NCBI GenBank assembly: GCA_015956445.1
Contig: WIUZ02000008.1
Coordinates: 434,001-498,000, forward strand
Direction of reading: 5' to 3'
DNA length: 64,000 nt
Source: Thelephora terrestris
Lineage: Eukaryota > Basidiomycota > Agaricomycetes > Thelephorales > Thelephoraceae
The stretch's first letter is position 1. Every line of letters begins with the position of its first letter. The position numbers and the translations under genes were made by a program. The notes beneath the pieces are model-generated. The model saw nothing but the letters and a program-made list of their open reading frames with translations, was not told the DNA's origin and made no database searches. Positions 408 through 57,499 of the stretch are shown here, piece after piece.

Positions 408-856
408 TGTCAGGGCCACTCTACCCCAACAACTACCAGTGCACTGAGCCAACTCCGCAGAGTACTCACTAGTCCAACTAGCTGTGAGAGAAAGATCACT
501 TCTCTATTCTTCCGGTAGGTTGTCCGAGGTCACTACAAGTCAGGTGGAAATCCTAAAGAGAAACCCAACCTAAACCGTACTTTGTTCGGTTTAACAAGCA
601 AGGTTTTATCCCTACAACAGGATTTGATGACTCCACCAGGTGATCGACTGGACGCTCGAGGTGTTCTAATATGAACGCTGGGGTTCTATAGTTATGAGGC
701 ACAGTTGACGCACAGAGCAGGAGGGAGAGCAGATGGGGGATGCCTTGTGTTCAAACAAGAAACTCTGACTTGTCCTTAACTGCAACTGGGCTGAGAAGGG
801 CAGAGGATTTCCTGAGGTAACAAAACTAAGGTACTATGATACAGCCACAGTTGCCA

Positions 857-885
857 CTTATACTAAAGGAGTGGCCATGACGTCA
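857..885 (-). promoter_or_regulatory. CRE box plus TATA box of element B1
   Basis: An 8-bp palindrome TGACGTCA (CREB/ATF-type site) at 878-885 is followed on the minus strand by TATAAG at 862-857, about 20 bases away. The same pair occurs in B2 (10681-10688 and 10706-10711) and in B3 (20333-20340 and 20312-20317). It points at the TGACA end of the element, as expected for an LTR promoter. Confidence 0.55.
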
Positions 886-904
886 ATACCCTAATATACC
901 CTTA

Positions 905-1291
905 TCAAGACAGAAAAAAGGGAGATAAGGAGTGTGAGAACGCTAAGTAAGGGAAGCGAACAAAGGTGACGCGTGGGAAAATAAAGACAAAGGGCCTTAC
1001 TAGCGTGTGAAGGATTGCATAAAAGATAAGAAATGTCCACATGAAACATAGGGGTAAAGATAACACTAGTCCAAAAGGGAATAGGAGCATGGGGTCATGA
1101 AAGTTTGTTCCTGGGGATCTCACCCAAGGGCCAGGTGTCAATCTCCCTTTACATGGCCTCTGCCAGCTGGATTCGGGAGTAGAGAAATTCAACATCCCTT
1201 GTTGTCTGTAGGCGGTAACAGCATCACGGACTAGTGGCAACCTCAACGTACGTCCAAACATGAGGAGGTCGGGCCTAGACTCATGGGACAT
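905..1291 (-). CDS. Small conserved frame of element B1 (sense to LTR promoter)
   Basis: A 128-codon frame begins MSHESRPDLLMFGRTLRL. It is followed by a Pro/Arg region and a hydrophobic stretch of about 40 residues that could span a membrane. The first 65 or so codons are nearly the same in B2 (10275-10622) and B3 (20346-20747), which supports either coding or strong recent ancestry. It diverges head to head from the coiled-coil frame at 1785. No family was recognised. A non-coding origin is possible, since three young copies will share any open frame by descent. Confidence 0.3.
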   Translation of the reverse strand: MSHESRPDLLMFGRTLRLPLVRDAVTAYRQQGMLNFSTPESSWQRPCKGRLTPGPWVRSPGTNFHDPMLLFPFGLVLSLPLCFMWTFLIFYAILHTLVRPFVFIFPRVTFVRFPYLAFSHSLSPFFLS

Positions 1292-1784
1292 GGGGGATTA
1301 CAGATTCGCCGGCGTTTCACGCTAACGACTACTTCTACATTCGCTTGGCTAACCAAAAGGAGTCTAAGGCACTCCTTCCGAATAACGGCAATTCCTTCCT
1401 CCGGTTAGGAGACTGTGATGTGACTGTCCACGTGTGTGATCAGGGTCCAGGGTTGGTTGTTATCGTGATGTCATAAATGAGTCATCAGGGTCGTAAAGGG
1501 ATTCGTAAAGGGGTCGTCAAGGTCATGAGACCTATTTTTAGTGCGCGCGTGTTCTAGGCGTTCCGGAACGAAGTTCTTCCAAGGCCGTCCCGCGGGCCGA
1601 GGTGTCAGCTTGATATAGTAAGCCAACGATGATGGTACAGTGGCGGAAGTTGATGTGACCCGGACCAATGAGGTGCGTCAAGGTAGGTCACGTGAAGGAT
1701 CACCAATCTAGGCTATAAGAAGGACGTCTTCTTGGAGCCATCCTTGATCAGCAACACCAGCAACTTCCCCATCATCCTACCAAA

Positions 1785-3506
1785 ATGTCTTTCCCCAACA
1801 ACCATACCTACAAAGTTGCCAATGGGATCTCCACCATCTCCCGTATCGACCGCCGTGCTGCCAACCGCAAGACCTATGCCAATGAGGCAGGGGTTTCCTA
1901 CACCACCGATGAACAGGTGGGGGGGAGTTTGAAATAATTTTGTGATATTTCTAACTCTTTCCCAATAGATCTTGGAGGTCGTCAAGCAGGTGGATGCCGA
2001 ACGTCTCAGGGAGACGATTCCTCATTTGATGGGGTTGACCTGGGACGATGAGCTCTGGGTCCGGTCTATGATCGCCGAGAAGGTGATCTTCCAAATGAGG
2101 GGTAGGAGCATCCGATCAAGAAGGAACTCTGGTACACCCTGCAAAGGGGGATCTACGATCAGGACCTATTGGAGCACGGGGCAACCGTTCCTCGGGCCAT
2201 CCGCCATGCCACCGCTTCCACCACGCTATTGTGGTCGCTCGTTCGAGAGGGGGAAAGCCGGGTAGGTTTTCCGTTTGGATATTTGAGTATGACTCTCGAC
2301 TAACCAAACTGCCTAGGTTGAACAATTGGAGCGCGAGGTGAAGGAGGTGAAGGCAGACGTCCTTCGTCTGTCCGCAGAGGGTCTGTTGATGAAGGAGACC
2401 ATGGCCGCCTTCCAGCAGGGGACGAACGAGGCATTGGAGGCAATGGTTGCTAACCATCAAGAGTTAGTCGCTGGCCTGAAGGTTCGGGACGTCAACATCC
2501 AGAAGGCCTTGGACATGAGGGATGATCGCCTGGATAGACACTCAAAGAAGATTGGGGATGAAAGCAATAAGGTAGCTTTCAGCCTTTGCAGGTTTATGCA
2601 ATGACTGAAGGACTTCCTTCTAGATCGAGGAGCTCGAGGATCTAGTGTCCGTGTGGATGGCGCGGGTCGAGTCCTTACAGGATAAGACCTGTAACTGCAA
2701 GGAAGGTCCTGTCTTGGTTGGACAGGGGACAGCCGATGTTCCGTTCGAGTTGGAGTAGGCCGACGAGGTGGTACTCCCGTTGCCTAACCCGTCGTCCTAC
2801 GCCACACCTCCGGTAGAGAACGAGGTTCCCGTCCCGACTCCGGCTCCGGCTTCTACTCTGGCCGAGTCCGACAAGGAGAACTGTGGACGCTGCCCACTGC
2901 AGCCGATCCATCAGTTGGTGAAGATCGAGGATGAGGTCATGGTGGTTGACCGGGCCGAAGATGCTCTGAGGGTCGTCAAGGTACGTCCGGTGGTCAGGGG
3001 TCAGCGTTGCAAACACTCTCGATGCTGCAATGATCATCGCATGGCTCCCTCGGCTAATCCTTACCCGCGTCCAGTCGAGTTGGATGGTGACCAGTCTGGT
3101 CGAGATGAGGGACGAGGGTTCCGATATCGGGTCCACCGTCCTAACCGACAGGTTGAGTCGGATGTCCAGCGTAGGCACCTCACCCGACTCGCAGTACAGG
3201 ATCCTGGCCAGGCCTCCGATGAGGGAGACGGAGGGTCGCTCTTCGACTACGTCGACAGCGCTGCTGAGTACTCACCCGGTGATGGAGATGTGGGACCAGG
3301 TGTTCCGCAGTTCGGTGACATCTGGGAGGCTGACCGGTCCACTCGAAGGAGTCTCTTCCTATCGGCTTGAACTAGAAGTTCAGTTGAGCGCGGAGGATGG
3401 GGACACCATGTTCGGAGAGATCCTGGTGAGGAGGGGCCAGTTCTACGATCTCCGGGATGGAGCGTTGATGACCATGAGGCCTGCCGTAGATAGAGTCGAC
3501 TTCTGA
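1785..3506 (+). CDS. Antisense coiled-coil frame carried by element B1
   Basis: Open frames on the plus strand run from an ATG near 1785 (MSFPNNHTYKVANG) to a stop after 3500, with GT/AG-type gaps between open stretches that suggest introns. Parts in order: a short basic N-terminus, a helical segment (RLRETIPHLMGLTWDDELW), a heptad-rich coiled coil, and a Pro/Asp-rich acidic C-terminal region with a Cys pair (ENCGRC). A TATAAG box at about 1713 lies 70 bases upstream of the ATG. The same frames occur in copies B2 and B3, so the unit belongs to the element and is not a host gene caught in it. No known family was recognised. The direction is opposite to the LTR-type promoter of the element. It is part of a fossil. 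Confidence 0.45.
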
Positions 3507-3693
3507 AGGACGTTGTAGAACCATAGTATAGCCATGTCGTTTTGTATTGCCGTGAATGGATTGTGCGTTGTGTGTGTTTTGAATGATTGAAGTGAAAGAT
3601 AAGGAGTGTGCAGCATTCAAACATAAGAAATGGTAAGAAGAGTTTGAAGAAGGAGCGTGTTATAAAAAGTTTAAAAATACCATGTTCCTGACA

Positions 3694-4294
3694 ATTCCCC
3701 TTGAAGGACACTTCATCTATCTTGACCGTGCGCATGACGAACTGATCTAGTACGTGTCCCGGTCCTGTCAGGAGTGCATCAGAAACCAGCGGGCGGCTGA
3801 AAACCTCACTATCTCTGTGCTCGTAAGTGTCGAATTGAAAACCCGGAGTGTTTAAAAGTGTCTTCAAAACCGTGTGGGCGTTCTGTGCGAAAATTCGTGG
3901 AGCTGCATCAGCGTGTAGCTCCTGAATTTCGTGCTGGCTTATTGAAGTTCTTGCACCTTCGGTTGCTTTCTTCAGGAACTCCTCGTTGGACCCTGGAAGT
4001 TGGTAATCGGGTTCGTCTGGTGGGATGAAAACGGTTGTGGCAGTGCTGCTGTCAAAATGGGAATTGTGTCCCACTCGTTGGTGCGAGACACGAAACATCC
4101 GGTTGATATTATCATGGGTGGTGTTGAAGCTCGTTGTTTTGACCCGCTTTACCAGATCATCCATCTTGCTCTTCGCAACCTTCTCTACGGCTGTAAGGGC
4201 CCACTTTTGGGTTAGCGTGACCCCGAGGGCGCTCATGGTACCGAAAGCCTTCACCACAGTACCACAGGCTTTTGAGTAAAGCAAGATGGGGCGG
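3694..4294 (-). pseudogene. DUF6589-like gene, middle part
   Basis: This is the central coding part of the split gene. It has about 195 residues with the motif HDNINRMFRVSHQRVGH followed by a Thr/Ala-rich stretch, typical of the DUF6589 core (DNIN...R..QR.G). It lies between element B1 (ends 3693) and element B2 (starts 4295). Both borders show 5-bp target-site duplications: ATTCC at 3694-3698 and GGCGG at 4290-4294. The reading frame is open throughout this piece, and it matches the frame on the far side of each insertion. The two insertions therefore hit an open gene, and little decay is visible in this piece. Confidence 0.65.
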
Positions 4295-4478
4295 TGTCAG
4301 GAACATGGTATTTTTAAACTTTTTATAACACGCTCTTTCTTCGAACTCTTCTTACCATTTCTTATGTTTGAATGCTTCACACTTCTTATCCTTCACACCA
4401 ATCATTCAAAACACACACACGCGTGTACTATTCCCAGCGAATCCACAATGAGCTATACAAAGTGCTATCATCGTCCCA

Positions 4479-5445
4479 TCAGAAATCGACTCTATCTACG
4501 GCAGGCCTAAAGGTCATCAACTGTTCATCCCGGAGATTGTAGTGCTGGCCCCTCCTCGCTAGGACCTCCCCGAACATGGTGTCACCATCTTCGGCACTCA
4601 GCTGAACAACTAGTTCAAGCCGATAGGAAGAGATGCCTTCAAGCGGACCAATCAGCCTCCCAGATGTCACCGAACTCTGGAACACCTGGTCCCACATCTC
4701 CATCACCGGGTGACTGCTCGACAGCACTATCGACGTAGTCGGCAAGCAACCCTCCGTCTCCCTCGTCGGACCCCTGGGTGGGATCCTGCCATGCGAGGCG
4801 AAGCTGGTGTCGGAGTTGGATCTCGGACTCGACCTGTCGGTAAGGACGGTGGACCCGATATCGGAATCCTCGCTCCTCACCTCGACCAGACTGGTCACCA
4901 TCCGACTCAACTGGTCGAGGGTAAGGATTAGCCGACGCGGTCATACGATGAGCGGGACGGCGTCGAGAGCGCTTGCATCGTTGCCCCTTAGTCACCGGAC
5001 GTACCTCGGCGACCCTTGGAGCATCTTTGGCTCGGTAAACCTCCATGACCTCATCCTCGATCTTCACCAACTGATGGATCGGCTGCAAGACGCAACGCCC
5101 ACAGTTCTCCTTGTCGGATGCGGCCAAAGTCGAAGCCGGACCTGGAGTTGGCACGGGAACCGCATTCTCGATCAGAGGCGTTGCATAGGACGACGGGTTA
5201 GGAGATGGGAGTACCACCTCGTCGGCGTACTCTAACTCGAACGGAACATTGGCTGTCCCCTGACCAACCAATTTGGGACCCTCTTTACAGTTACAGGTCT
5301 TGTCCTGCAAGGACTCGACCTGCGCTGTCAACACGGCCACCACGTTCTCGAGTTCTTCCGTCTAGAAGGTCTTTCAGTTATTGCACAAACCGCAAAGGCT
5401 GAAGGACGACCTTTTCATCCCTCCTGGCCAACGCCCCCTTGATGT
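4479..5445 (-). CDS. B2 antisense coiled-coil unit, C-terminal frames
   Basis: This is the counterpart of the acidic, Pro/Asp-rich part of the frame at 1785-3506 in B1, again with the Cys pair (ENCGRC) and an Arg-rich stretch. Its other half lies at 9012-9781, on the far side of element D. It is conserved with B1 at the protein level in the same frames. It is part of a fossil element. Confidence 0.4.
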
Positions 5446-6828
5446 CACTGGGGACAGGGGTTGGTTTACTGAGTTAGTAAACTGTGAGTAAATCACAAGC
5501 AAATGGAAAAAGAACCCAGTGAAATACTTGCCAGGCAAGCACAAAGCAAATTCACAATTTACTGAGCCAATTTACCTGCAATTTACTGGGTTCAGTATGT
5601 GCTCAGTATGTTTGCAGTTTACTGGGTCATGTGACTATGATTTACCCATTAGGTAAACCTTGGAAAAATTCACAATTTACTGAACAAATTTACCAGCAAT
5701 TTACTGGACTCAGTAAACTGGAAAAAAACCAAACTGGTTTACTGACAACGTACCTGATTGGTCAATTTGAAAAATATCCAAAAATTTACCTGGACGTGTC
5801 ATTGTCAGTAAACTGCAAGTTTTCTTTCAGTAAATTGGAAATACACGTCAGGTAAACTGGGAAAACACGTGACAATTTGATTGTGGTTTACTGGGCTCAG
5901 TAAATCAGAAAAAAACCTAACCGGTTTACTGAAGATGTACCTGATTGGCTAATTTGAAAAAAACTCGAAAATTTACCAGGACATGTCTTTATCAGTAAAC
6001 TGCAAGTTTTCTTTCAGTAAATCGCAAATACACGTAAAGTAAACCAGAAAACACATAAACTTTGAATTTACTTACAGTTTACACGTGTTTTCTGGTTTAC
6101 TTTACGTGTATTTGCGATTTACTGAAAGAAAACTTGCAGTTTACTGATAAAGACATGTCCTGGTAAATTTTCGAGTTTTTTTCAAATTAGCCAATCAGGT
6201 ACATCTTCAGTAAACCGGTTAGGTTTTTTTCTGATTTACTGAGCCCAGTAAACCACAATCAAATTGTCACGTGTTTTCCCAGTTTACCTGACGTGTATTT
6301 CCAATTTACTGAAAGAAAACTTGCAGTTTACTGACAATGACACGTCCAGGTAAATTTTTGGATATTTTTCAAATTGACCAATCAGGTACGTTGTCAGTAA
6401 ACCAGTTTGGTTTTTTTCCAGTTTACTGAGTCCAGTAAATTGCTGGTAAATTTGTTCAGTAAATTGTGAATTTTTCCAAGGTTTACCTAATGGGTAAATC
6501 ATAGTCACATGACCCAGTAAACTGCAAACATACTGAGCACATACTGAACCCAGTAAATGTCACGAACGCGTGACATAGTAGCCAAGATCTCACAAGTAAT
6601 CAAAGACATTGGTCTCATTCGCAGTAATAATAATACAAGAGGAGCTAAAAAGAACTACAAACTCAGACAAGAACAAACGGGTCAATATCACATGAGCAGT
6701 TCTGAGGAAGAGGGCAACGATGAGCGAAGTGGTGAGGGTTATGAATACTCTCAGGACAGTAAGACCAATCTCGCGTCACCGGATCCTGCCAACACTCCCT
6801 ACACCCCAACACATCATGAGATAAGCTA

Positions 6829-7566
6829 TCATACATCTCTCGCCTCATGTCCGACAAGGCTGCGCTCACTAAGGAGAACCCATAGCGGTCTTGGAGACCC
6901 GCCACTTCCACCTTCAACTTCATCCTCACTTGACGTGACTTGTCGGAGGGACGACAACGTTGACCAGAACGAGTCATCGGACTCTTGCGGGTCTTCTTCT
7001 TCTGGGACCTCTCCACCATCTGGCGAACTGGGGCAGGACTCCAGGGAGGGGATGGAGGGAGAGGAACGCCCTGATCCTGGCGGTGGCGAAGGGATGACTG
7101 GGGACTTGCAAGGGGGGTCGGTACAATAAGTCCCATGGCACTGGTGTCCGAAATATCGGAAGAGAGATGCCTGGAAAGGTCCCCAATGTTCCAAAGCAAA
7201 GTGAGAGAAGTCGTCATTCAAACTGTTCATGATGACGTACATGAGATCCACCCGCTTCTCCAATTTCGCAATCCGATCCTCCCTCTCCCTCTCCATAGCA
7301 TCCAACAAACGAACGGCTCCAGGGTGTTGAGCCTGGACCACAGGCCCAGAAAGCCTGGGATCTTCATACCCAGCTTGCTCCCAGAACTCGGTGGGGGCGT
7401 TATGAGCGGTAAGGAAGCTGATGGCAACCTGGTTGTCATGAGCAATGTTGGCAGGAGAGTCGTACAAATGTTGCTCCACGTCGTAGGGAGCAGCCGTCTC
7501 GAAGGACGGGGTGAAGGGAGTAGCGGCGGCGTTGAGCACGGCATTGTTGGCAACGAAGGCAGACAT
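6829..7566 (-). CDS. Antisense frame of element C1
   Basis: A 245-codon frame begins MSAFVANNAVL. In order it has an Ala/Pro N-terminus, a YDVEQHLYDSPANIAHDNQ segment, a charged helix (MEREREDRIAKLEKRVDL), a conserved FALEHWGPFQASLF stretch, a Cys pair region and a long Ser/Pro/Glu-rich acidic tail. The same protein is encoded in C2. A TTTAA-type box precedes the start by about 90 bases. No known family was recognised. The overall layout (helix, then acidic Ser/Pro tail with Cys) resembles the antisense frame of family B. It is part of a fossil. Confidence 0.45.
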   Translation of the reverse strand: MSAFVANNAVLNAAATPFTPSFETAAPYDVEQHLYDSPANIAHDNQVAISFLTAHNAPTEFWEQAGYEDPRLSGPVVQAQHPGAVRLLDAMEREREDRIAKLEKRVDLMYVIMNSLNDDFSHFALEHWGPFQASLFRYFGHQCHGTYCTDPPCKSPVIPSPPPGSGRSSPSIPSLESCPSSPDGGEVPEEEDPQESDDSFWSTLSSLRQVTSSEDEVEGGSGGSPRPLWVLLSERSLVGHEARDV

Positions 7567-7774
7567 AGTAGTAAGAATATTTGAGAGAGGAGAGTAGTGC
7601 TGGTGATTGTGGGTGGAAAAGAGGCGATGGAGGAAACGATCATTAATCCCCCTGACTTAAATACGTCCTGACTCAAGGGGGGAACTGGAAAGGGAAAACA
7701 ATAACCCATTATCCATTAAAATCCCAATTAGGATAAATAAACCCTCAGCCCCAATCGCGATCCCATCAAACCCT

Positions 7775-7905
7775 GAGAAATCCCCATCGATCATGAGAAA
7801 TCCCCACCACGCTTCTACTACTACCGTTGATCCAGAGAAATCCCCGTCGATCACGAGAAATCCCCACCACGCTTCTATTACTACCATGAAACACGAGAAA
7901 TCCCC
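7775..7905. repeat. GAGAAATCCCC array between the two C1 frames
   Basis: Five copies of GAGAAATCCCC start near 7775, 7795, 7835, 7855 and 7895, in a 60-base higher-order period that includes CCACCACGCTTCTA. The array lies between the divergent frames. C2 has the same array at about 11840-11970. The reverse complement GGGGATTTCTC resembles a Rel-type binding site. In fungi the proteins with a Rel-like fold are the velvet factors. The link to them is speculation. Confidence 0.6.
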
Positions 7906-8073
7906 GAATGCTTCCGTCGACCCGTACCTCTACTGTTCCCGTATTAATAATTATCATCTATCGTTCTAAGTCCTCTCGCTCTCTGATTCATCTACCCTAC
8001 CCTAAACTACGCACAGACCATGTTGACTCCTGTTTGACTCGTTGTAGAATAATGACTGCTGTAGAGGGTTGGG

Positions 8074-8151
8074 TATATAAGGAAGAGCGTTCGCTCCTTC
8101 TTTTCCCCATTCTCAATCTCTTCTGTACTCCTCTACCCACAACCTGAATAA
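8074..8151 (+). promoter_or_regulatory. C1 TATA box and AATAAA signal
   Basis: TATATAA at 8074-8080 is followed about 70 bases later by AATAAA near 8146. A CT-rich stretch between them fits a transcription start. The pair is conserved in C2 (TATATAA on the minus strand at 11669-11675). The arrangement is that of a U3/R boundary and a polyadenylation signal in an LTR. Confidence 0.5.
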
Positions 8152-8223
8152 AAGTAAGCTGAGGAATTCTCCTCACGCCTTACCTCTTCTAACTCATCTC
8201 AGCAGGAATTCTCCTGCTAGTGT

Positions 8224-8847
8224 ATGTTCAGCGCCCCCAACCCTTTCCCCTCTACAAGCCCAGTTCAGCGACCAGTCGTCCCTGACGCTAGGAGATCTAT
8301 CTGGGAGTATAAACTCATCAGGAGTCTTCAAGTAAACCGAACCGCCGGTTTACTCACCCACTTCCCTTACTATCGCCCCTTTGCTGCTCTCGACGCCGGA
8401 GTCACCACTCCTCCTTTCCTTCTAGGCGCAGACCATCAGTTCCTTTGGAACTCAGACCTCACCGAGAGCGTCCTAGCAACGGTCTATTTCTGTATTAGCC
8501 CTGCCTTTTACTTCCCTTCCCCCAAAGTTCATCTAACCACCAACGTTCATACTCACTGTCCCGCTCTTATCATCCTTTGGTGGGACGTTCCAACTGAATT
8601 ACCTTATTCAATTATAGAATACCTCGTGCACTTCGAGCAACTCAGCGGTCAAGACTTCGAGCCGTTCGTTCAGCAATTAAGCCAGTTTTGCCAGGACTAT
8701 AACTCGCCCGTCCACCCGTATCAGACAGAGTCATCACTCTCGCTCGATATCCCTCCTCCTCTCACCCCTACGCCCGGAACCCCCTTCAAAACTCGACCCG
8801 ACACCCCGCATCCCTCCGCTAATCCTCTAGCGCCCCACGAACAGTAA
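8224..8847 (+). CDS. Sense frame in the 3' third of element C1
   Basis: A 207-codon frame (MFSAPNPFPSTSPV) ends 20 bases before the TGACA terminus. It is Pro-rich at both ends and has a hydrophobic/aromatic core (LLTHFPYYRPFAALDAGV, then LIILWWDVPTELPY) and a Pro/Thr tail. The frame is intact and nearly the same in C2 (10901-11524). Many of the differences I noticed between the two copies are conservative, which suggests real coding. It lies downstream of the TATA/AATAAA pair, so it would be the first frame of any RNA started there. No family was recognised. Confidence 0.5.
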   Translation: MFSAPNPFPSTSPVQRPVVPDARRSIWEYKLIRSLQVNRTAGLLTHFPYYRPFAALDAGVTTPPFLLGADHQFLWNSDLTESVLATVYFCISPAFYFPSPKVHLTTNVHTHCPALIILWWDVPTELPYSIIEYLVHFEQLSGQDFEPFVQQLSQFCQDYNSPVHPYQTESSLSLDIPPPLTPTPGTPFKTRPDTPHPSANPLAPHEQ

Positions 8848-9011
8848 GCAGGCCTACAACCCTGACAGTAAATTGCAGGTAAATTGGCTCAGTAAATTGT
8901 GAATTTGTTTTGTGCTTGCCAGGCGAGTATTTCGCTGGGTTCTTTTTCCATTTGCTTGTTATTTACTCATAGTTTACTGACTCAGTAAACCAACCCTTGC
9001 CCCCAGTGTGT

Positions 9012-9781
9012 TGTTATCTCTAACCTTCAACCCGGCGATCAACTCTTGATGGTTGGCGACCATTGCCTCCAACGCCTTGTTCGTTCCCTGTTGGAAGGCT
9101 GCCAAGGTCTCCTTCATCTGAAGACCCTCTGCTGACAAACGAAGGACGTCTGCCTTCGCCTCCTTCACTTCATGCTCCAATCGTTCAACCTAGGCAGTCT
9201 GATTAGTCGAGAGTCATACTCGAATATTCAGACAGAAAACCTACCCGGCTTTCTCCTTCCCGAACGAGCGACCATAATAGGCTAGTGGAAGCGGTGGCAT
9301 GGCGGACAGCCCGAGGAACGGTCGCTCCGTGCTCCAATAGGTCCTGATTGTAGATTCCCCTCTGCAGGGTGTACCAGAGCTCCTTTTTGATCGGATGCTC
9401 CAACTCTCCGAACCTACCCCTCATCTGGAAGGCCACCTTCTCGGCGATGATCGTACGGACCCAGAGCTCGTCGTCCCAGGTCAATCCCATCAAGTGAGGG
9501 ATCGTCTCCCTGAGACGTTCGGCGTCCACTTTCGTAACGACCTCCAAGATCTAGAAGCCATTAGCTGGACATCAACGCCCAAAAGAAGGTGCCTCTACCT
9601 AGAGGAAGGCGTTAGTGCAAACACAAAAAGCTCTAGGTCTCCCCCATACCTGGTCATCAATGGTATAGGGAGTCCCCGCCGCACAGGCATAGGTCTTGTG
9701 AGCGGCGGCACGACGGTCAATACGGGAGATGGTGGAGATGCCGTTGGCGACTTTGTAGGTGTGGTTGTTGGGAAAGGACAT
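9012..9781 (-). CDS. B2 antisense coiled-coil unit, N-terminal frames
   Basis: From the ATG at 9781 (MSFPNNHTYKVANGIS) through the helical RLRETIPHLMGLTWDDELW segment and the first heptads of the coiled coil, this matches B1 and B3. Gaps between open stretches begin GT and end AG. The unit is cut by element D at 9008. It is part of a fossil element. Confidence 0.4.
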
Positions 9782-10274
9782 GTTGTGGTAAGATGATGGG
9801 GAAGTTGCTGGTGTTGCTGATCAAGGATGGCTCCAAGAAGACGTCCTTCTTATAGCCTAGATCGGTGATCCTTCACGTGACCTACCTCGACGAACCTCAT
9901 TGGTCCGGGTCACATCAACTTCCGCCCCTGTACCATCATCGTTGGCTTACTACATCAAGCTGACACCTCGGCCCGCGGGACGGCCTTGGAAGAACTTCGT
10001 TCTGGAACGCCTAGAACGCGCGCGCACTAAAAATAGGTCTCAAGACCCTGATGACCCCTTTATGACATCACGAACCCCTTTTACGACCCCTCATGACTTT
10101 ACGATTACGATCAACCCTGGACCCTGATCACACACGTGGACAGTCACATCACAGTCTCCTAACCGGAGGAAGGAATCGCCGTTATTCGGAAGGAGTGCCT
10201 TAGACTCCTTCTGGTTAGCTAAGCGAATGTGGAGTAGCCGTTAGCGTGAAACACCGGCGAATCTGTAATCCCTC

Positions 10275-10622
10275 ATGTCCCATGAGTCTAGGCCCGACCT
10301 CCTCATGTTTGGACGTACGTTGAGGTTGCCACTAGTCCGTGATGCTGTTACCGCCTACAGACAACAAGGGATGTTGAATTTCTCTACTCCCGAATCCAGC
10401 TGGCAGAGGCCATGTAAAGGGAGATTGACACCTGGCCCTTGGGTGAGATCCCCAGGTACGAACTTTCATGACCCCATGCCCCCATTTCTTTTAGGACTAG
10501 TGTTATCTTTACCCCTATGTTTCATGCGGACATTCATTATCTTTTATGCAATCCTTCACACGCTAGTAAGGCCCTTTGTCTTTATTCTCCCACGCGTCAC
10601 CTTGTTCGCTTCCCTTACTTAG
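10275..10622 (+). CDS. Small conserved frame of element B2
   Basis: Counterpart of the frame at 905-1291 in B1 (MSHESRPDLLMFG..., 115 codons), with the same hydrophobic C-terminal half. The neighbouring CRE/TATA pair lies downstream at 10681-10711. Whether it is translated is unknown. Confidence 0.3.
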   Translation: MSHESRPDLLMFGRTLRLPLVRDAVTAYRQQGMLNFSTPESSWQRPCKGRLTPGPWVRSPGTNFHDPMPPFLLGLVLSLPLCFMRTFIIFYAILHTLVRPFVFILPRVTLFASLT

Positions 10623-10900
10623 CGTTCTCACACTCCTTATCTCCCTTTGTTCTGGACTTGATAAGGGTATATTAGGGTATTGACGTCATGGCCACTCCTT
10701 TTTGGTATAAGTAGCAACTGTGGCTGTATCATAGTACTTTAGTTTTGTTACCTCAGGAAATCCTCTGCCCTTCTCAGCCCAGTTGCAGTTGAGGACAAGT
10801 CAGAGTTTCTTGTTTGATCCAAGACAACTCCATCTGCTCTCCCTCCCGCTCTGCGCGTCAACTGCGCCTCGTAACTATAGTGTCAGGGTTGTAGGCCTGC

Positions 10901-11524
10901 TTACTGTTTGTGGGGCGCTAGAGGATTAGCGGATGGGTGAGGGGTGTCGGGTCTGGTTTTGAAAGGGGTTCCGGGCGTGGAGACGAGAGGAGGAGGGATA
11001 TCAAGGAAGAGAGGTGACTCGGTTTGATAAGGGTGAACGGGCGAATGGTAGTCTTGGCAGAACTGATTGAGTTGCTGCGCGAACGGTTCGAAGTCTTGGT
11101 CGCTAAGACGTTCGAAGTTGACGAGGTATTCTATGACAGAATAAGGTAATTCAGTTGGGATTTCCCACCAAAGAACGATAACGGCAGGAGAATGGGTGTG
11201 AATATTAGTTGTGAGATGAACACGTGGAGAGGGGAAGTAAAAGGCCGGACTGATACTGAAGTAGACGGTCGCAAGGACGCTCTCAGTAAGATCTGAATTC
11301 CAAAGGAATTGGTGATCTGCCCCTAGTAGAAAGGGGGGGGTAGTAACTCCGGCGTCGAGAGCTGCAAAGGGTCGGTAGTAAGGGAAATGGGTAAGTAAAC
11401 CGGCAGTTCGGTTTAATTGAAGACTTCTGATGAGCTTATACTCCCAGATAGATCTTCTAGCGTCAGGGACGACGGGTCGTGGGACTGGGCTGGTAGAGGG
11501 GAAAGGATTAGGGGCACTGAACAT
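10901..11524 (-). CDS. Sense frame of element C2
   Basis: Counterpart of 8224-8847: 207 codons, the same length, start and stop, with scattered mostly conservative differences (for example HFEQLSGQDFEPF against NFERLSDQDFEPF). A TATATAA box lies at 11669-11675 upstream. Confidence 0.5.
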   Translation of the reverse strand: MFSAPNPFPSTSPVPRPVVPDARRSIWEYKLIRSLQLNRTAGLLTHFPYYRPFAALDAGVTTPPFLLGADHQFLWNSDLTESVLATVYFSISPAFYFPSPRVHLTTNIHTHSPAVIVLWWEIPTELPYSVIEYLVNFERLSDQDFEPFAQQLNQFCQDYHSPVHPYQTESPLFLDIPPPLVSTPGTPFKTRPDTPHPSANPLAPHKQ

Positions 11525-12180
11525 ACACTGGCAGGAGGGTTCCTGCTAAAATGAGTCAGAAGAGGTAAGACGTGAGGAGAATTCCTCAGCTTACTTGTAT
11601 TCAGGTTGTGGGTAGAGGAGTACAGAAGAGATTGAGAATGGGGAAAAGAAAGGAGCGAACGCTCTTCCTTATATACCCAATCCTCTACAGGAGTCATTAT
11701 TCTACAACGAGTCAAACAGAGATCAACATGGTCTGTGCGTAGTTTAGGGTAGGGTAGATGAGTCAGAATGAGGGGACTTAGAACGACAGATGGTAATTGC
11801 TAGTACGGGAACAGTAGGGGCGCGAGTCGATGGAAGCATTCGGGGATTTCTCGTGTTTCATGGTAGTAATAGAAGCGTGGTGGGGATTTCCCATGATCGA
11901 TGGGGATTTCTCAAGATCAGCGGTAGTAATAGAAGCGTGGTGGGGATTTCTCATGATCGATGGGGATTTCTCTGGGTTTGATGGGGTCGCGATCGGGGCT
12001 GAGGGTTTGTTTATCCTAATTAGGACTTTAATGGATAATGGGTTATTGTTTTCTCTTTCCGGTTCTTTCCTTGAGTCAGGAGGTATTTAAGTCAGGGGGA
12101 TTAATGATCGTTCCCTCCATCGCCTCTTTTCCTCCCATACTCACCAGCACACTCCTCTCTCTCAAATATTCATTACTACC

Positions 12181-13065
12181 ATGTCTGCCTTCGTTGCCAA
12201 CAACGCCGTGCTCAGTGCTGCCGCCACCCCCTTCACTCCGTCCTTCGAAACGGGTGCTCCCTACGACGTGGAGCAACATCTGTATGATTCCCCCGCCAAC
12301 ATCGCCCATGACAACCAGGTCGCCATCAATTTCCTCACCGCTCATAATGCTCCCGCCGAGTTCTGGGAACAAGCTGGGTACGAGGACCCCAGGCTTTCTA
12401 GGCCTCAGGTTCAGGCTGGACACTCTGGACCCGTCCGCTTGTTGGACGCCATGGAGAGGGAGAGGGAAGATAGAATTGCGAAGTTGGAGAAACGTGTGGA
12501 CCTTATGTACGTCATCATGAACAGCCTGAATGATGACTTCTCTCATTTTGCTTTGGAACATTGGGGACCTTTCCAGGCATCTCTCTTCAGATATTTCGGA
12601 CACCAATGTTGCGGGGCTTATTGCACCGACCCCCCTTGCAAGTCCCCAGTCATCCCTTCGCCACCGCCAGGATCAGGGCGTTCCTCTCCCTCCATCCCCT
12701 CCCTGGAGTCCTGCCCCAGTTCGCCAGATGGTGGAGAGGTCCCAGAGGAAGAAGACCCGCAAGAGTCCGATGACTCGTTCTGGTCAACGTTGTCGTCCCT
12801 CCGACAAGTCACGTCAGGTGAGGATGAAGTTGAAGGTGGAAGTGGCGGGTCTCCAAGACCGCTATGGGTTCGCCTTAGTGAGCGCAGCCTTGTCGGACAT
12901 AGTTTATCTCATGATGTGTTGGGGTGTAGGGAGTGTTGGCAGGATCCGGTGACGCGAGAGTGGGCTTACTGTCCTGAGAGTGTTCACCACCCTCACCACT
13001 TCGCTCATCGTTGCCCTTTTCCTCAGAACTGTTCATGTGATATCGACCCGTTTGTTCTTGTCTGA
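12181..13065 (+). CDS. Antisense frame of element C2
   Basis: A 294-codon frame begins MSAFVANNAVLSAA. It has the same parts as the C1 frame and adds a C-terminal Cys/His-rich stretch: GCRECWQDP, then CPES, HPHHFAHRC and NCSCD. That spacing of Cys and His could bind zinc. The start codon lies about 90 bases downstream of a TATTTAA box. No known family was recognised. It is part of a fossil. Confidence 0.45.
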   Translation: MSAFVANNAVLSAAATPFTPSFETGAPYDVEQHLYDSPANIAHDNQVAINFLTAHNAPAEFWEQAGYEDPRLSRPQVQAGHSGPVRLLDAMEREREDRIAKLEKRVDLMYVIMNSLNDDFSHFALEHWGPFQASLFRYFGHQCCGAYCTDPPCKSPVIPSPPPGSGRSSPSIPSLESCPSSPDGGEVPEEEDPQESDDSFWSTLSSLRQVTSGEDEVEGGSGGSPRPLWVRLSERSLVGHSLSHDVLGCRECWQDPVTREWAYCPESVHHPHHFAHRCPFPQNCSCDIDPFVLV

Positions 13066-13453
13066 GTTTGTAGTTCTTTTTGACCCGTCTTGTACTATTA
13101 TTACTGCGAATGAGACCAATGTCTTGGATGACTTGTGAGATCTTGGCTACTATGTCACGCGTTTGTGACATATAGACTCTCAGCAGTCACATTAGAACAC
13201 CTCGAGCGTCCAGTCGATCAACTGGTGGAGTCATCAATCCTGTTGTAGGGATAAACCCTTGTGTGTTAAACCAAACGAAGTACGGTTTAGGTTGGGTTTC
13301 TCTTTAGGATTTCGACCTGACTTGTAGTGACCTCGGACAACCTACCGGAAGAATAGAGACGTGAACGTTCTCTCACAAGCTAGTTAGACTAGTGAGTACT
13401 CTGTGGAGTCGGCTCAGTGCACTGGTAGTAGTTGGGGTAGAGTGGCCCTGACA

Positions 13454-17200: not shown

Positions 17201-17443
17201 TCCACTTTCTTCCTCAAAAAATTTCCCTCCCCTTACTTAGTGCCACTTGCCTCAGTGTCAGTAGCAGATGACTCTTCGTCCATTGATCCAATCCAACATT
17301 GTCACCCCATGGCAACACTCTAAGTATGTCAGTGTGTCAACGGTTCATCTCCCCCCTCCGTCCCCTTCATGCCCGGGCGATTCAAGTTACCATTGGGAGC
17401 ATGCAGACCATGACCGGAGAAGGGAGAGGAATGGAGGTCATTA
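14255..17443. other. No supported gene (except a fold-back repeat)
   Basis: Only short unsupported frames are seen here. None carries a recognisable domain or a conserved copy elsewhere in the window. Base composition is mixed, with AT-rich patches near 14.7-15.0 kb. The one structured item is the inverted repeat at about 15146-15535. Confidence 0.5.
15146..15535. repeat. Imperfect fold-back (MITE-like) element
   Basis: The left end reads GTGACTGTCCGTAGGATTTACAC. The right end is its approximate reverse complement, with GTACATCCCACGGACAGTCAC. Further inward pairs are GTGTACACTCGAAT, the GACC..GACCGCTC block and AGGAACAC..GCA..AACT..GGCACCCTTCTA. The centre holds a further inner copy of the terminal word (CTACGGATAGTCACCCACTGTCCG). 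It is about 390 bp with no coding. A related word CTACGGATAGTCACCCA also occurs at 46680. The target duplication was not resolved. Confidence 0.6.
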
Positions 17444-18668
17444 CACTGGGGACAAAACCCAGTTTCCTGGCCCAGGACATCATAAACACATTGTAAGGAA
17501 ATGGAAAATGTGCCTGACAAAGACCCACCTGGTACATCGTAAATACATTCAAAATGTCCAGGCCAATTTCCTTAGAGTGTTGCCAGCACAGGAAATGCTC
17601 AGTACATTCATGGTGTTCCTGGTCATGTGATCTCATTGTTCCCATCAGGTAATCCATGGGAACATCATGAATTTTCCCAAAGAAATACCCATGATGTCCC
17701 TGAGTGGCTCATTGAAAGAAAACCCTGAGTGAACCCACAGTTTCCCAGGTCATGTGACCTTGATGTCCTGATTAGGTAATCTGAGGGTAAACCATGAATT
17801 TTCCCAAAGAAAGTAACCATGGTGTTCCTGAGTGGCTCATCCACAGTGTTCTTTCCAGTGTTCCCAGTGGTGTGATCACGGTGTTCCCAGTCAGTAAAAT
17901 TCAAATTAAGCCTTAATGGTGCGCCGGAAGTGTACCAGTGCGGTATATCCTGAAAGTACTAAGGCCTTCGACCATGATGTACCAAAATTTGGCAAACCAT
18001 CAGAAAACTGTGGGAACACTGAAAGGAAACTGGGGACACTGGGAACATCATAAACCCATTCAAAATGTTCCCAATTTCTCAGTTTCCTTTCAGTGTTCCC
18101 ACAGTTTCCTGATGGTTTGCCAAATTTTGGTACATCATGGTCGAAGGCCTTAGTACTTTCAGGATATACCGCACTGGTACACTTCCGGCGCACCATTAAG
18201 GCTTAATTTGAATTTTACTGACTGGGAACACCGTGATCACACCACTGGGAACACTGGAAAGAACACTGTGGATGAGCCACTCAGGAACACCATGGTTACT
18301 TTCTTTGGGAAAATTCATGGTTTACCCTCAGATTACCTAATCAGGACATCAAGGTCACATGACCTGGGAAACTGTGGGTTCACTCAGGGTTTTCTTTCAA
18401 TGAGCCACTCAGGGACATCATGGGTATTTCTTTGGGAAAATTCATGATGTTCCCATGGATTACCTGATGGGAACACTGAGATCACATGACCAGGAACACC
18501 ATGAATGTACTGAGCATTTCCTGTGCTGGCAACACTCTAAGGAAATTGGCCTGGACATTTTGAATGTATTTACGATGTACCAGGTGGGTCTTTGTCAGGC
18601 ACATTTTCCATTTTCTTACAATGTGTTTATGATGTCCTGGGCCAGGAAACTGGGTTTTTTCCCCAGTG
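17444..18668. mobile_element. Element F: fold-back CACTG-type non-autonomous transposon
   Basis: It is 1225 bp with ends CACTGGGG(A)AAAACCCAGTTTCC and a 3-bp duplication TTA (17441-17443, 18669-18671). It is an almost perfect palindrome with its centre near 18056. The arms carry many copies of GGGAACA/TGTTCCC, CAGGAACA and AGTTTCC, a different word from the one in element D. There is no coding: its frames are mirror pairs. The 3-bp duplication and CACTG ends place it with CACTA (CMC) elements. The near-perfect arms suggest a young insertion. Confidence 0.8.
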
Positions 18669-18671
18669 TTA

Positions 18672-19495
18672 TGAACGGGATTGACGTGACAGAACCTCAC
18701 CGATCGCCACGTCTCTCGCCGTATTGTCTACGTTAAACATCATCAACTCATTGGTTGTGCCATCTCTGGATCGCGGCCAAATCTGAGGATGCTAAGGATC
18801 ATGTCCCGTCAGGTCCAAATTTGCCACGATAGCCATGACAAGTTGGACTTTATTTGGTGGAGCAACACGTCCTCTCTACCATCCAGTCCTTCCATCCCGC
18901 CTGTGGTCCCTGGTCAGTCGTCACATGGAAGCCTGAGTGGACGGACTAACCCACCACCCACCCCATCAGCATCCACATCCGCCACGAATCCTTGTAGTTA
19001 TATCATCTAGCTCATTAGTATCTGTAGTTAATTCTAGATACTCTAGCATATGCACAATACATCTATCTTTCCACCAAGCTGCTAAAGTAGACTGAAGTGA
19101 ACGAAACTGTCAAAAAATGAGTTGTCACTTTGGGCACTTAGGTCACTTTTGAAGTGACCGCCCAACTTCAAAGTGCCTCAAAGACGGACCCGCACATCAC
19201 ATGTGCTTTCAAAACAGCATGAGCCTTTGGCTGTTTTGGAACTTTCGATCACTCAAAAGTCCATTAAAGGGTTTTCTATTTTTGTGATGGTTTCTCGCTG
19301 TGGCGCTTCTGTCACATCAAATCCCAGCATCAACTCATTTGTCTGAACAGCTTTTCGCCCGCAGTTCCCCCAATTTGAAGTGTCCTGGCAGCGCCTTTGG
19401 CTGTGTCGGCAGTGATAGCACAGCCAAGCTCCCAGATGGTCTCGATAGAAGCAGGACAGTGTTGTCCATCCTATATACTAAGAAATAATGGTTTT
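18672..19495. other. No gene seen
   Basis: No recognisable protein is present. A short inverted cluster near 19110-19180 repeats GTCACTTTGGGCAC / GTCACTTTTGAAGTGAC / CTTCAAAGTGCC. The word GCCTTTGGCTGT occurs twice (near 19225 and 19395). These look like worn repeat debris. Confidence 0.4.
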
Positions 19496-49582: not shown

Positions 49583-50278
49583 TGGGGTGGTTGACTAAGA
49601 AAGAAAAGAAAACTCGCTTGCTCGCTTGACTTGGGTGAGAAAACCTCCGAAGCCAGGGGCTCGTGCACACAGAACCATACCAAATACGAAACGGCCAAGT
49701 TGACAGAGAAGTATCGATTTCGGAGCTCAGTGTGACCGGCGACCGTCCTCCTTGCAGTTGGATCACGAGGATCAGAATCCTGGTGCATGGCTGGTGTTGC
49801 GTGCTTGGAGGGTGTCTAATCCATGCCTCTGGAATGTTCCTAAGCCTTTTCGAGTGTGAGAGCACCCGGCGATAACCAAGGTAATGATGCAGGAGGACGT
49901 AATTGGGGTTGAATGTTGAGGCTAAGCCTCGGCCTCGAAGCGATCGATGAACCTCCAAGGAGACTCACGCAAGCATGACGGACCGGCCGCCGCGCTCTTA
50001 CTCTACGATTTTTCTACCTGGAAGGAATACCTGGAAGGAACGTGTAAGTTCAGACAACACCCTATGCCCTCGTATTCACTGTGGGGAGTGTGAAAGGGTC
50101 GGAATTTAGAACGTTGGAATCCATACCCCAAAAGTTTTGCCCATAACCGATGTTCCGACGTTCGCCCTGCACATGCAAAATTGTTCAGCCGAGGTGGTTG
50201 GGGGATTTTGAGCGTGATGAAGTGGGAGGGGGTGAGGGGGTGCTCGCTAGGTCATGGTGGGCGCAGTTGACGACATGG

Positions 50279-50455
50279 ATCGACACCCGACTGCGTGGAT
50301 CGACACCCGACTACTCCCACAACAAGGTGTAGGCGTCGCAACAAAACAAAATTGAAAGCCCCACAAGACAAGGTAGGCGTCGCAACAAAAAGCGTCGCGA
50401 AATTAAAAGGCCCACACGACAAGGTGTAGGCGTCGCAACAAAAAAGGTCGAAAGG
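50279..50455. repeat. Tandem repeats in the left arm
   Basis: GGATCGACACCCGACT occurs twice 18 bases apart (from 50279). It is followed by three copies of the CAAGGTGTAGGCGTCGCAACA word (one shortened) at about 55-60 base steps, with A-rich and CCCACA(A/C)GA parts between. The mirror copy is at about 59012-59188. Confidence 0.7.
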
Positions 50456-50654
50456 CTAATAACGTTTATTGTTTGTCGACTACGTGTAGACAGTCGGAAT
50501 ATTAGTGCAGAATCGACATTTACCCACCCTCTCTCTGTGAAGCAATGCGGAGGTAGAACGATGGGATAGATAGAACGAACGATTACTGTGCGGAGGGGTC
50601 CCAAACCCCGCACAGGACGGAATCGGATCACGGCTCGGACCGTTATCACAACAA

Positions 50655-51772
50655 TCAACGTCCAACCAAGTCTGCCGTCTGGTCCGGGTTGTTGTCAACC
50701 TCGTGCCTCTTTCCTTCGCTCGCAAGCGAAAGTGCCTTGTGTCCGCCTGACCTTTCTCGTTGCCGATTTGTGCAGCTTCCTGCGTTGAACCGCGCGCGAT
50801 GCGGGGAACACGGAAAGCCGGTTGGGCACTGCCACTGCGGGTGGATTGTAAGGATTATTGCCGATGGCTGGAGGTCGGTAGAAACGCTGGAGATATATGT
50901 GTCGAGTATAACATGTGACGCGCCACGGGTGGGTTCTGAACCACCCAGGACATGGCTGCTGAGTGTCGCTTCTTGGGTATAGACGGTCCCACCACTTTCT
51001 GGCACGGAGATGGGTGGGGATGACCACGCAGTCGTTAAATTCCTTGAGGAACCTGAAGGGGGTCGTCAGAAAAACTCTCAAACGGTGGAACGCTGCAACG
51101 TTGTACCAATCGACCCGTTGAAACGCTTGAAAGCCCGCGGTATCCGTACACGAGGGTTCGCCTCTATCAGGAGGCCCCTGGCTGTCGTCGTATATGCTTG
51201 AAGCATCCCAGCTTTTCTTAACCGCGAGTCGAGAAGCGGAAACTAAGGATCGAAAGTACAAACTTGTCACCCATCTCCGCAGGATTGCCCAGCGAAACGT
51301 ACCTGATCCCTGGTCTCCGCCAGAATGCCTTGACAATCACCGCAATTCGATAGACATGCTTGACATCCCCTTCCACACCTTTCTTGCTCGTACTTGTCCA
51401 CTGTCCCTCCAGGCGAGCTCGCTCGAGGGTCACGAAGAGCCGATGTGTGCAGATTTCGCCACGAGGGGGAGCCCGCGGATCGGGTGAAAACACGGCACCG
51501 TGCACGCGATGCGAGCTGTCTATGAGATGCGCCCCAACCGCACCGCATCATGGGGTTCTCGCCCAGTCGGGGTCCCTGGAAATGTCCGATTTTGTCGAGA
51601 GCGGGGTAGAGTGATGGGCAAGATAGGCTCAGAGTTCGCAGAATTCGTATGGCTGTGACCGAAGACACTCTCTGACAGAAAGAAAGCTAACAAAGTCAAC
51701 TTGTTACTCCATCAAACGGTAAACCGAGAACGGAACGACTTACGGGCGGGAAAGGGATGATGTGGTCATTCA
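50655..51772 (-). CDS. Unrecognised coding-like segment, left arm
   Basis: The minus-strand frames run away from the gene at 51968 and would share a 200-base divergent promoter with it. A short first exon (MNDHIIPFPP, ATG at 51772, donor GTAAGT) could lead to several open stretches, among them HRLFVTLERARLEG and RFLKEFNDCVVIPTHLRARK. Frames change between stretches, so introns or decay are present. No family was recognised. The mirror copy is at 57695-58812. Confidence 0.3.
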
Positions 51773-51967
51773 TCGCAAAGGCGATCGAACAAGAAAGACG
51801 ATCGAACGCTGAGCCACTGGCGCTTGAAAGGGCTCTTTGGCGACAGAGGCCCACCCGGCCCCGACATATAATGCCCAATGCTCTGTACGCTCGCAGCAAC
51901 AATGCCCTCCTATTCTCTCCCTCCTATTGTATATCTCCCCTCTTCTGGCGGCTACACTAGCTCCAGG

Positions 51968-52945
51968 ATGGTACCAGAGGTCTGTCGTTATCGCTCCTCT
52001 CACTCTCACTAGAAAACCCTCCGAACTGACTTTCCGTCCAGACCCCCGACCGCCAGAGGTTCCCTTTCCGCCGCTACAGCATTGACGACGACGGAAACCT
52101 TGTCTGCAAAACCCGAAACGTATCACGAGACAGGTGAGTGTCCCTCGAGCATCCGATTTCCCAGACCCTAACGCAACATCAGCCGCCTAAAACCATATGA
52201 CAAGCCACCCTCCAGATCCAAACCTGCACCGCTCCCGTCTCGCCGCTCTCCGTCTCCCCAGGAGACCGAGGACGGCTCATCCGACCCCAATGCTGCTGCC
52301 AGACTCTTTGCCAGCTTGGTCCCGACGATCATGCAAAACCCCAAAGCGCTAGATTCCGTGTCCTCAATATGTGCTGCCCACAACGTCGATTCTACCGTCA
52401 CCGCCTCCATAATCCGGGCTGTTAAGAAGCAGCTTGAGCCTCCCGAAGACGAAGCGTTGAACGAGAGGTGCGATTCCTCTCTATTTCCGTGTCCCCAGCG
52501 GTGCTAACGATCCAGGCGTAGTGCTCAGCCCGCCGTCCAAACTCCGGTCCCTGCATCCTCTTCTGGACCTTCCGACGCCCACACTTCTGCACCGCTGCAA
52601 GATGGACTCATTCCGTTCAAACATGATCGTCCGTTTCCTTCCGGACGAGGAACTACAACCTGGTATTCTACCGAGTCCTCTGGAGAGGTCCATTCTCCCC
52701 CATCGGGCTTACGCGTCGATGCCGGCGACCTCTACATTCACAAGAATCTGTCCAACTCTTCGTTCCAGACTTGGTTGTACGGCGTTGATGGACGATGGAG
52801 GCGCCTCAAGACCGATGGCACCAAGATCCCGCACCCAATCTACTTGGAGAGGTCACTTAGTCTCCGATCCGACGGAACCCCCAACTGGGTCGCTTCGGTG
52901 AGGTTCGCCGCCGTACAAACTCGCAAGGATAGGAGCCGTGCATAG
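51968..52945 (+). CDS. Gene of the inverted pair, left copy
   Basis: The four exons are 51968-51979, 52042-52133, 52183-52467 and 52516-52945, which give 272 residues. In order: a short N-terminus (MVPETPDRQRFPFRRYSIDD), a Ser/Pro/Lys region, a helical domain (AAARLFASLVPTIMQNPKAL), then in the last exon LIPFKHDRPFPSG, GDLYIHKN and DGTPNWVAS. The first three exons and about 90 bases of the fourth lie in the identical arm. The rest of exon 4 lies in the spacer and is only about one third identical to the right copy. No known family was recognised. Both copies keep intact frames. Confidence 0.65.
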
Positions 52946-56515: not shown

Positions 56516-57499
56516 CTAATCCCATGACTTTGATTTTCCTTTTCTTCCCTTGATAGTAGAATAACTAGCGGAGGTAATCCAGCTGGGTGTCCCGTTGACA
56601 CGGATGCTGAGGACACGGTCGGGGATGATGGGATGATACACCTTGGCAGCATCGGTCACGGACTTCCAAGTTCTGTCAAATTCGAAGAGCCAGACATCAT
56701 GGTGGTCTGTGGCCCGATTCTTGTGAACGTAGAGGTCTCCGATATTTGGATTGAGGTCATCCGAGGGAGAAGGAATGTCCTCCATCGATTGAGAGGCGTA
56801 CCAAATTGTGTGTCCAGAAGAACCGGAAGCAAATGGACGTTTTTGCTTGAAAGGAAGGATCTCATCTTGCGGCGGTGCAGAAGTGTGGGCGTCGGAAGGT
56901 CCAGAAGAGGATGCAGGGACCGGAGTTTGGACGGCGGGCTGAGCACTACGCCTGGATCGTTAGCACCGCTGGGGACACGGAAATAGAGAGGAATCGCACC
57001 TCTCGTTCAACGCTTCGTCTTCGGGAGGCTCAAGCTGCTTCTTAACAGCCCGGATTATGGAGGCGGTGACGGTAGAATCGACGTTGTGGGCAGCACATAT
57101 TGAGGACACGGAATCTAGCGCTTTGGGGTTTTGCATGATCGTCGGGACCAAGCTGGCAAAGAGTCTGGCAGCAGCATTGGGGTCGGATGAGCCGTCCTCG
57201 GTCTCCTGGGGAGACGGAGAGCGGCGAGACGGGAGCGGTGCAGGTTTGGATCTGGAGGGTGGCTTGTCATATGGTTTTAGGCGGCTGATGTTGCGTTAGG
57301 GTCTGGGAAATCGGATGCTCGAGGGACACTCACCTGTCTCGTGATACGTTTCGGGTTTTGCAGACAAGGTTTCCGTCGTCGTCAATGCTGTAGCGGCGGA
57401 AAGGGAACCTCTGGCGGTCGGGGGTCTGGACGGAAAGTCAGTTCGGAGGGTTTTCTAGTGAGAGTGAGAGGAGCGATAACGACAGACCTCTGGTACCAT
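56516..57499 (-). CDS. Gene of the inverted pair, right copy
   Basis: It is the mirror partner of 51968-52945: the same ATG context, introns and first three exons, with the last exon from 56951 to the stop at 56516. The last-exon frame continues from the identical part into ILPFKQKRPFASG, PNIGDLYVHKN, HDVWLFEFDRTW, PIIPDRVLSIRVNG and TPSWITSAS. It aligns with the left copy's LIPFKHDRPF...GDLYIHKN...TPNWVAS but is diverged everywhere else. Both promoters are the same sequence, so both should be expressed alike. Confidence 0.65.

Follow-up and report, generated by a model that had tools for sequence, protein, structure and literature searches.

We analysed a stretch of 64,000 nucleotides (the window) of the basidiomycete Thelephora terrestris (assembly GCA_015956445.1, contig WIUZ02000008.1, positions 434,001 to 498,000), in which two 2.3-kb elements, C1 and C2, each carry a divergent pair of protein genes between TG...CA ends. 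Both genes are real, and C1 and C2 are likely solo long terminal repeats (LTRs) of a Ty3-type, probably chromovirus-related, retrotransposon whose LTR carries the gene pair. This assignment draws on the ends, duplications and gene layout of the elements and on their likeness to family B, also present in the window, and to a second chromovirus of the same genome, so that the LTR identity of C and its former body are argued by analogy.

C1, C2 and the C family

A sequence-only reading of the window had taken C1 and C2 for separate insertions, and each is indeed flanked by a perfect duplication of its own (GTAAA and TATAG, respectively); the positions it gave for the antisense and sense frames are likewise borne out (Table 1). 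The window's own assembly (40.6 Mb, 60 contigs) was then searched for relatives. C1 as DNA query gave at least 51 matches from the 40 scored of 522 candidates, and the 207-residue sense frame gave at least 150 (the best 150 of 411 candidates scored), 145 of them stop-free. The terminal 11-mer CAACCCTGACA occurs 337 times, compared with 26 occurrences of its reversed control. Sampled CAACCCTGACA sites without a listed match proved mixed: of eight such sites, three carry C-like sense frames (208 open codons in two, a shorter frame in the third), two are C ends interrupted by B and three match by chance; a ninth stretch (L065) fell off target. On this basis, we estimate the family at roughly 200–300 copies.

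Forty copies, chosen by best score against C1 and not as a random sample, were examined, 35 of them with both ends. These complete copies measure 2250–2341 bp and all begin with TGTCA and end with TGACA, as expected for the TG...CA termini of LTRs. A perfect 5-bp duplication flanks 32 of the 35, the remaining three matching at 4, 3 and 1 of 5 positions. Pairwise difference has a median of 11.6%, nearest neighbours mostly differ by 5–10%, and one pair is near-identical. A sister subfamily at two further loci (L061 and L066) has ~80% DNA identity to C and its own open 208-codon sense frame. At another locus (L058), positions 2859–3066 are 83% like the first 209 bp of C1 and match the end of the antisense protein over 37 residues (76%); this stretch is a diverged C relative. 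The same locus also contains a different repeat as two inverted 2.3-kb copies (63–2325 and 3078–5363; 90% alike), each with a 158–159-codon acidic frame, possibly a further gene-carrying family.

The sense gene is under strong constraint

All 35 complete copies keep the sense frame open, at 207 codons in 34 and 199 in one (L029), and its stop lies 20 bp from the terminus in every one of them, as the sequence-only reading had noted for the two window copies. Ratios of nonsynonymous to synonymous substitution rates (dN/dS) and of the corresponding proportions of differences (pN/pS) were computed on sets of 34/35 copies (left out were L029 for the sense frame and L025, a near-twin of L024). The sense frame has a dN/dS of 0.056 over 561 pairs from 34 copies and of 0.082 over 25 nearest-neighbour pairs, and third codon positions take about 77–78% of its differences. 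Its pN/pS is 0.09, compared with 1.45–3.02 in four of the five other frames; the fifth, a minus-strand frame with the same third codon position, gives 0.17 but contains stops in 34 of 34 copies. In a substitution-only simulation, the probability that all 35 frames stay open is ~5e-4 at 1% neutral drift per copy and ~2e-10 at 3%. Given the 35 open copies, the constant spacing to the end and the low simulated probability, the sense frame is not a chance product.

Upstream of the gene, a 48–52-nt intron pattern (GTAAGC..CT[AG]AC..YAG) is found in the 5' leader of 34 of 35 copies, and the 35th keeps the donor with a different branch sequence. TATATA precedes the intron donor in all 35 copies and marks a candidate promoter inside the repeat. 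The sequence-only reading had placed AATAAA, too, before the sense frame; this signal is present in C1, absent from C2 and found in 23 of 35 copies. It abuts the conserved donor and is probably an incidental signal.

Constraint on the antisense gene changes frame along the element

Frame a of the antisense gene is open to its normal end (240–245 codons) in 32 of 35 copies, with a dN/dS of 0.174 (0.205 for nearest-neighbour pairs). Constraint lies in frame a at element positions 661–1009 (pN/pS 0.14) and in the overlapping frame b at 109–420 (0.14–0.21), and all codon positions are conserved at 420–569. Because constraint passes from one frame to the other along the element, the gene would either shift by +1, through splicing or frameshifting, or yield two products; within the limits searched, no canonical intron explains the switch. 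The long 294-residue frame of C2 represents the two frames fused by a 19-bp shorter stretch, the usual form having 245 codons. A third open frame, on the sense strand from the left terminus, is open in 31 of 35 copies and has no coding signal at 111–269 (pN/pS 2.6).

Neither C protein matches Pfam (E up to 1) or PHROGs. The best hits in PDB sequence searches (E 0.46 for the sense and 0.045 for the antisense protein) were taken as chance, and scans of viral contigs gave no relative. Structure prediction from two-sequence alignments yielded low mean predicted local distance difference test (pLDDT) scores of 33.6 and 39.3.

Family B is the LTR of a chromovirus

The B repeat, 3.3 kb long, serves as the LTR of a chromovirus with open gag-pol. 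At one genomic locus (L070), a reversed B ends at position 1267, an internal body occupies 1268–7284 and B resumes at 7285, with both sides in one orientation; the fetched stretch covers different parts of the two LTRs. The body has a 681-codon gag frame after the B end and a 1322-codon pol frame before B restarts. Pieces of this pol, read in L069, match Pfam RVT_1 (1.6e-31), rve (3.9e-9), SH3_Tf2-1 and Chromo (8.7e-18). Most B units are nevertheless single: the B terminus occurs 595 times (at most one mismatch; control 2) versus eight body-joined LTR ends, and single units with their own 5-bp duplication were found in eight of ten fetched copies as well as in B1 and B2 of the window. B has the same duplication length and the same TGTCA/TGACA ends as C. 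The sequence-only reading had gone further and given the two families common terminal heptamers, of which CCTGACA is exact; the other end reads TGTCACG in C and TGTCAGG in B, so the exact match is confined to one end.

Of the two genes ascribed to B, the antisense gene is backed by codon statistics, with pN/pS of 0.12–0.16 in three exons (12 copies); the second remains a proposal. Near the end of the antisense gene, constraint moves to the +1 frame (0.27–0.31), the same type of switch as in C, and here several candidate introns were found. A guessed first exon (MSFPNN frame) was discarded as unsupported (pN/pS 1.67). In six of the 12 copies, the exons tested contain a stop or a frame gap, some of the gaps being possibly alignment effects.

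A second chromovirus carries a related LTR gene

A search with the B-type reverse transcriptase found eight places at 100% identity, three at 76% and 32 at 32–36%. One of the 76% loci belongs to a second chromovirus with a chromodomain (Pfam Chromo, 4.8e-13) and an LTR pair that is 99.925% identical over the 1339 bp covered by both fetched stretches. Its LTR contains an antisense gene 38% identical to that of B over 107 residues, with overlapping open frames at its end. A Pfam match of this gene to Mim2 (E 7e-4) fell below the cut-off and was not accepted. As the second chromovirus carries a homologue of the B gene, the LTR-borne antisense gene is an old feature of this chromovirus group. The C antisense protein has no detectable homology to the LTR gene of the second chromovirus. 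The proposal of a wider class of gene-carrying LTRs is thus upheld by B, which flanks gag-pol, and by the near-identical LTR pair with its homologous antisense gene.

Coordinates and neighbouring repeats

Table 1 Features of the C and B elements in the window (positions of the window; strand relative to the window)
Feature	Position	Strand	Remarks
C1, complete element, 2310 bp	6558..8867	+	ends TGTCACG...CCTGACA; GTAAA duplication on both flanks
C1 antisense frame b	6663..7217	-	overlaps frame a; ends ..DIDPFVLV; open in 33/35 copies
C1 antisense gene, frame a, 245 codons	6829..7566	-	predicted coiled coil; normal end reached in 32/35 copies
C1, two 60-bp tandem repeats between the genes	7772..7891	+	GAGAAATCCCC motif; family D17, 87% alike
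C1, TATATAA box upstream of sense gene	8074..8080	+	read from sequence
C1, intron in 5' untranslated region (5'UTR) of sense gene, 49 nt	8154..8202	+	GTAAGC..CTAAC..CAG; predicted from pattern
C1 sense gene, 207 codons	8224..8847	+	ends 20 bp before terminus
C2, complete element, 2290 bp	10881..13170	-	reversed; TATAG duplication on both flanks
C2 sense gene, 207 codons	10901..11524	-	ends 20 bp before terminus
C2, 5'UTR intron of sense gene, 49 nt	11546..11594	-	predicted; copy L010
C2, the same two 60-bp tandem repeats	11842..11961	+	family D18
C2 antisense gene, frames a and b fused	12181..13065	+	stretch 19 bp shorter
B1, solo LTR, 3286 bp	408..3693	-	ATTCC duplication; gene reads toward higher coordinates, antisense to LTR
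B2, solo LTR	4295..13453	+	GGCGG duplication; split by C2 and by palindromic repeat holding C1

C1 is inserted at the end of a near-perfect palindrome (5581–6054 and 6085–6558; 474 bp, 100%). The window holds another near-perfect palindrome at 17438–18032 and 18080–18674 (595 bp, 99%) and an inverted repeat with 3062-nt arms (49583–52644 and 56823–59884; 99.6–100% complementary) around a 4178-nt spacer.

Search for a gag-pol body joined to C

Several results weigh against C being an LTR. No direct C pair around gag-pol was found among the 35 complete copies, 128 integrase matches or 10 body-start sites. The start of the B-type body follows eight LTR ends, none of them of C, and a looser search gave ten, again none of C. 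In the integrase test, which covered 128 of 144 matches, two were bracketed by C within 14 kb, with spacings that fit neither B nor a normal element, and none of the 46 matches on contigs C1–C10 (47 entries typed, one occurring twice) was bracketed by C ends within 9 kb. Moreover, the genes of C and B have no detectable homology (probability 0.1%; E 1.2), the direction assumed for gag-pol in C is taken from the common CCCTGACA end, and the sampled C genes look less damaged than the sampled B genes, which a plain solo-LTR history would not predict on its own.

Neighbouring sense frames within 18 kb form 25 same-strand and 23 opposite-strand pairs, hence no excess of direct C pairs. Candidate LTR pairs at 189–197k and 562–571k of contig C1 were rejected, with other repeats lying between the copies, as was a pair at 1248–1265k of contig C23, where each copy is an insertion of its own with a separate duplication. 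The best reading is that the C body is absent from this genome or unrecognised; since absence from this genome is not absence from the species, C is classed here as LTR-like on inference alone. Of the 144 integrase matches (on contigs C8, C23, C12 and others), many have long open frames and tie in score, which suggests that the genome contains many recently active LTR elements.

Alternative origins of the C elements

Wherever the flanks of a C copy were read, the copy stands single; no body was found and neighbours are unpaired (25 same- versus 23 opposite-strand within 18 kb), a state that also suits a stand-alone 2.3-kb two-gene mobile unit moved by an integrase at its TGTCA/TGACA ends, as does the intactness of both genes in nearly all sampled copies despite 6–16% divergence. 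However, B, with very similar ends and duplications and mostly single, is demonstrably an LTR, and at the B rate (8 in ~595 termini) fewer than one full-length element is expected among the 35 C copies. Neither C protein resembles a transposase or integrase, and we regard such a unit as unlikely. Nor does C look like a DNA transposon, with no transposase recognisable in Pfam and inverted ends of only ~5 bp. That C is less damaged than B is the main point in favour of C as a unit of its own, and it bears on a further scenario, in our view distinctly unlikely, in which C has outlived its body and the LTR spreads, selected as a two-gene unit and mobilised in trans by chromoviruses with the common end. 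Either all sampled copies were inserted recently, from many old lineages, or selection maintains them as units.

The C frames look spliced, have TATA boxes and are not known mobile-element proteins, features that would also suit captured or ordinary host genes lying in repeats by chance. The sequence-only reading had named homologues away from the element ends as the sign of such an origin, and they were looked for: 37 of 39 sense-frame matches (those on contigs covered by the first 100 of the 337 listed termini) lie at a C terminus, and in all 35 complete copies the gene is inside the element. With the 20-bp spacing kept in 35 of 35 and the same LTR plan in two families that have bodies, a host origin is very improbable. 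An artefact of a GC-rich repeat, for which the missing Pfam and PHROGs matches could be cited, has next to no probability in view of the sense pN/pS of 0.09, the excess of third-position differences and the 35 stop-free frames. The reading of C1 and C2 as gene-carrying solo LTRs is accordingly the one we adopt below.

Proposed expression and inheritance of the LTR genes

In C as a gene-carrying LTR, the region between the genes would serve as a two-way promoter region, marked by 60-bp tandem repeats and by TATA boxes in either orientation. A rightward transcript, in the presumed gag-pol direction, would start ~190 bp before the 207-codon gene, lose the 49-nt intron and carry this gene first; splicing from the conserved donor could also bypass it. 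A leftward transcript would encode the coiled-coil protein and run into the second overlapping conserved frame, and each LTR may express the coiled-coil protein in this direction. Reverse transcription would copy an LTR gene to both ends of the element, and the gene would survive loss of the body. Its location in the LTR therefore implies two copies per provirus and one per solo LTR, and recombination that deletes the body would leave working accessory genes behind. The C genes likely have an accessory role, perhaps in regulating LTR expression, evading silencing or assisting integration.

Discussion

Accessory coding in or near LTRs has precedents in vertebrate retroviruses: mouse mammary tumour virus (MMTV) sag and human immunodeficiency virus (HIV) nef lie in or reach into LTRs, and the promoter of human T-cell leukaemia virus (HTLV) HBZ lies in the 3' LTR. 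As in these cases, the genes described here lie in or would be driven from the LTR, in part antisense; the retroviral examples concern one gene, whereas C has a divergent gene pair, each gene with a TATA box of its own, in what is likely a fungal Ty3-type LTR. B and the second family are like other chromoviruses (Ty3/gypsy elements with a C-terminal chromodomain) in their reverse transcriptase, integrase, Tf2-like SH3 domain and chromodomain. Typical fungal LTRs are a few hundred base pairs long, whereas the LTRs of these two families reach ~2.9–3.3 kb and contain a gene.

Parallels are also found in plant Ty3 elements. Grande (gene23), RIRE2 and Retand are described as having antisense extra open reading frames (ORFs) between pol and the 3' LTR (PMC7264820). 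They resemble the present families in a conserved gene antisense to gag-pol, of unknown function and, in Grande, with its own promoter (PMC7264820); the plant gene is present once per element, in the gap between pol and the 3' LTR, whereas in the present families each of the two LTRs contains it and solo LTRs retain it. The plant-type placement was not found in B or the second chromovirus, where the gene is inside the LTR. Among fungi, Boty/BcGypsy1 of Botrytis cinerea is likewise an LTR element with an additional antisense gene, brtn (PMC7264820, PMC8365987). Compared by description only, brtn is named as an additional ORF, and the description used contains no LTR-borne gene. Judged from these partial accounts, location inside the LTR sets the present genes apart from known antisense-gene LTR elements, in which the gene is in the internal region. 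Text searches of open papers, with subscription papers largely outside their reach, listed no account of fungal LTRs that contain conserved genes, and the 'possibly undescribed' of the sequence-only reading holds to that extent.

The overlapping conserved frames in two families raise a sharp question of splicing versus frameshifting. If C has outlived its body, the LTR, rather than gag-pol, would be the replicating entity. The usual view takes LTRs for control sequence and their solo copies for debris. In this genome, three families have LTRs with protein genes under strong purifying selection, and such genes persist in hundreds of solo LTRs. The annotation of solo LTRs would change as a result: among the 'orphan' gene families of fungi, many may be LTR genes. 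Collectively, these genes constitute an unexplored set of accessory proteins and a system for testing what an LTR-borne gene does for its element.

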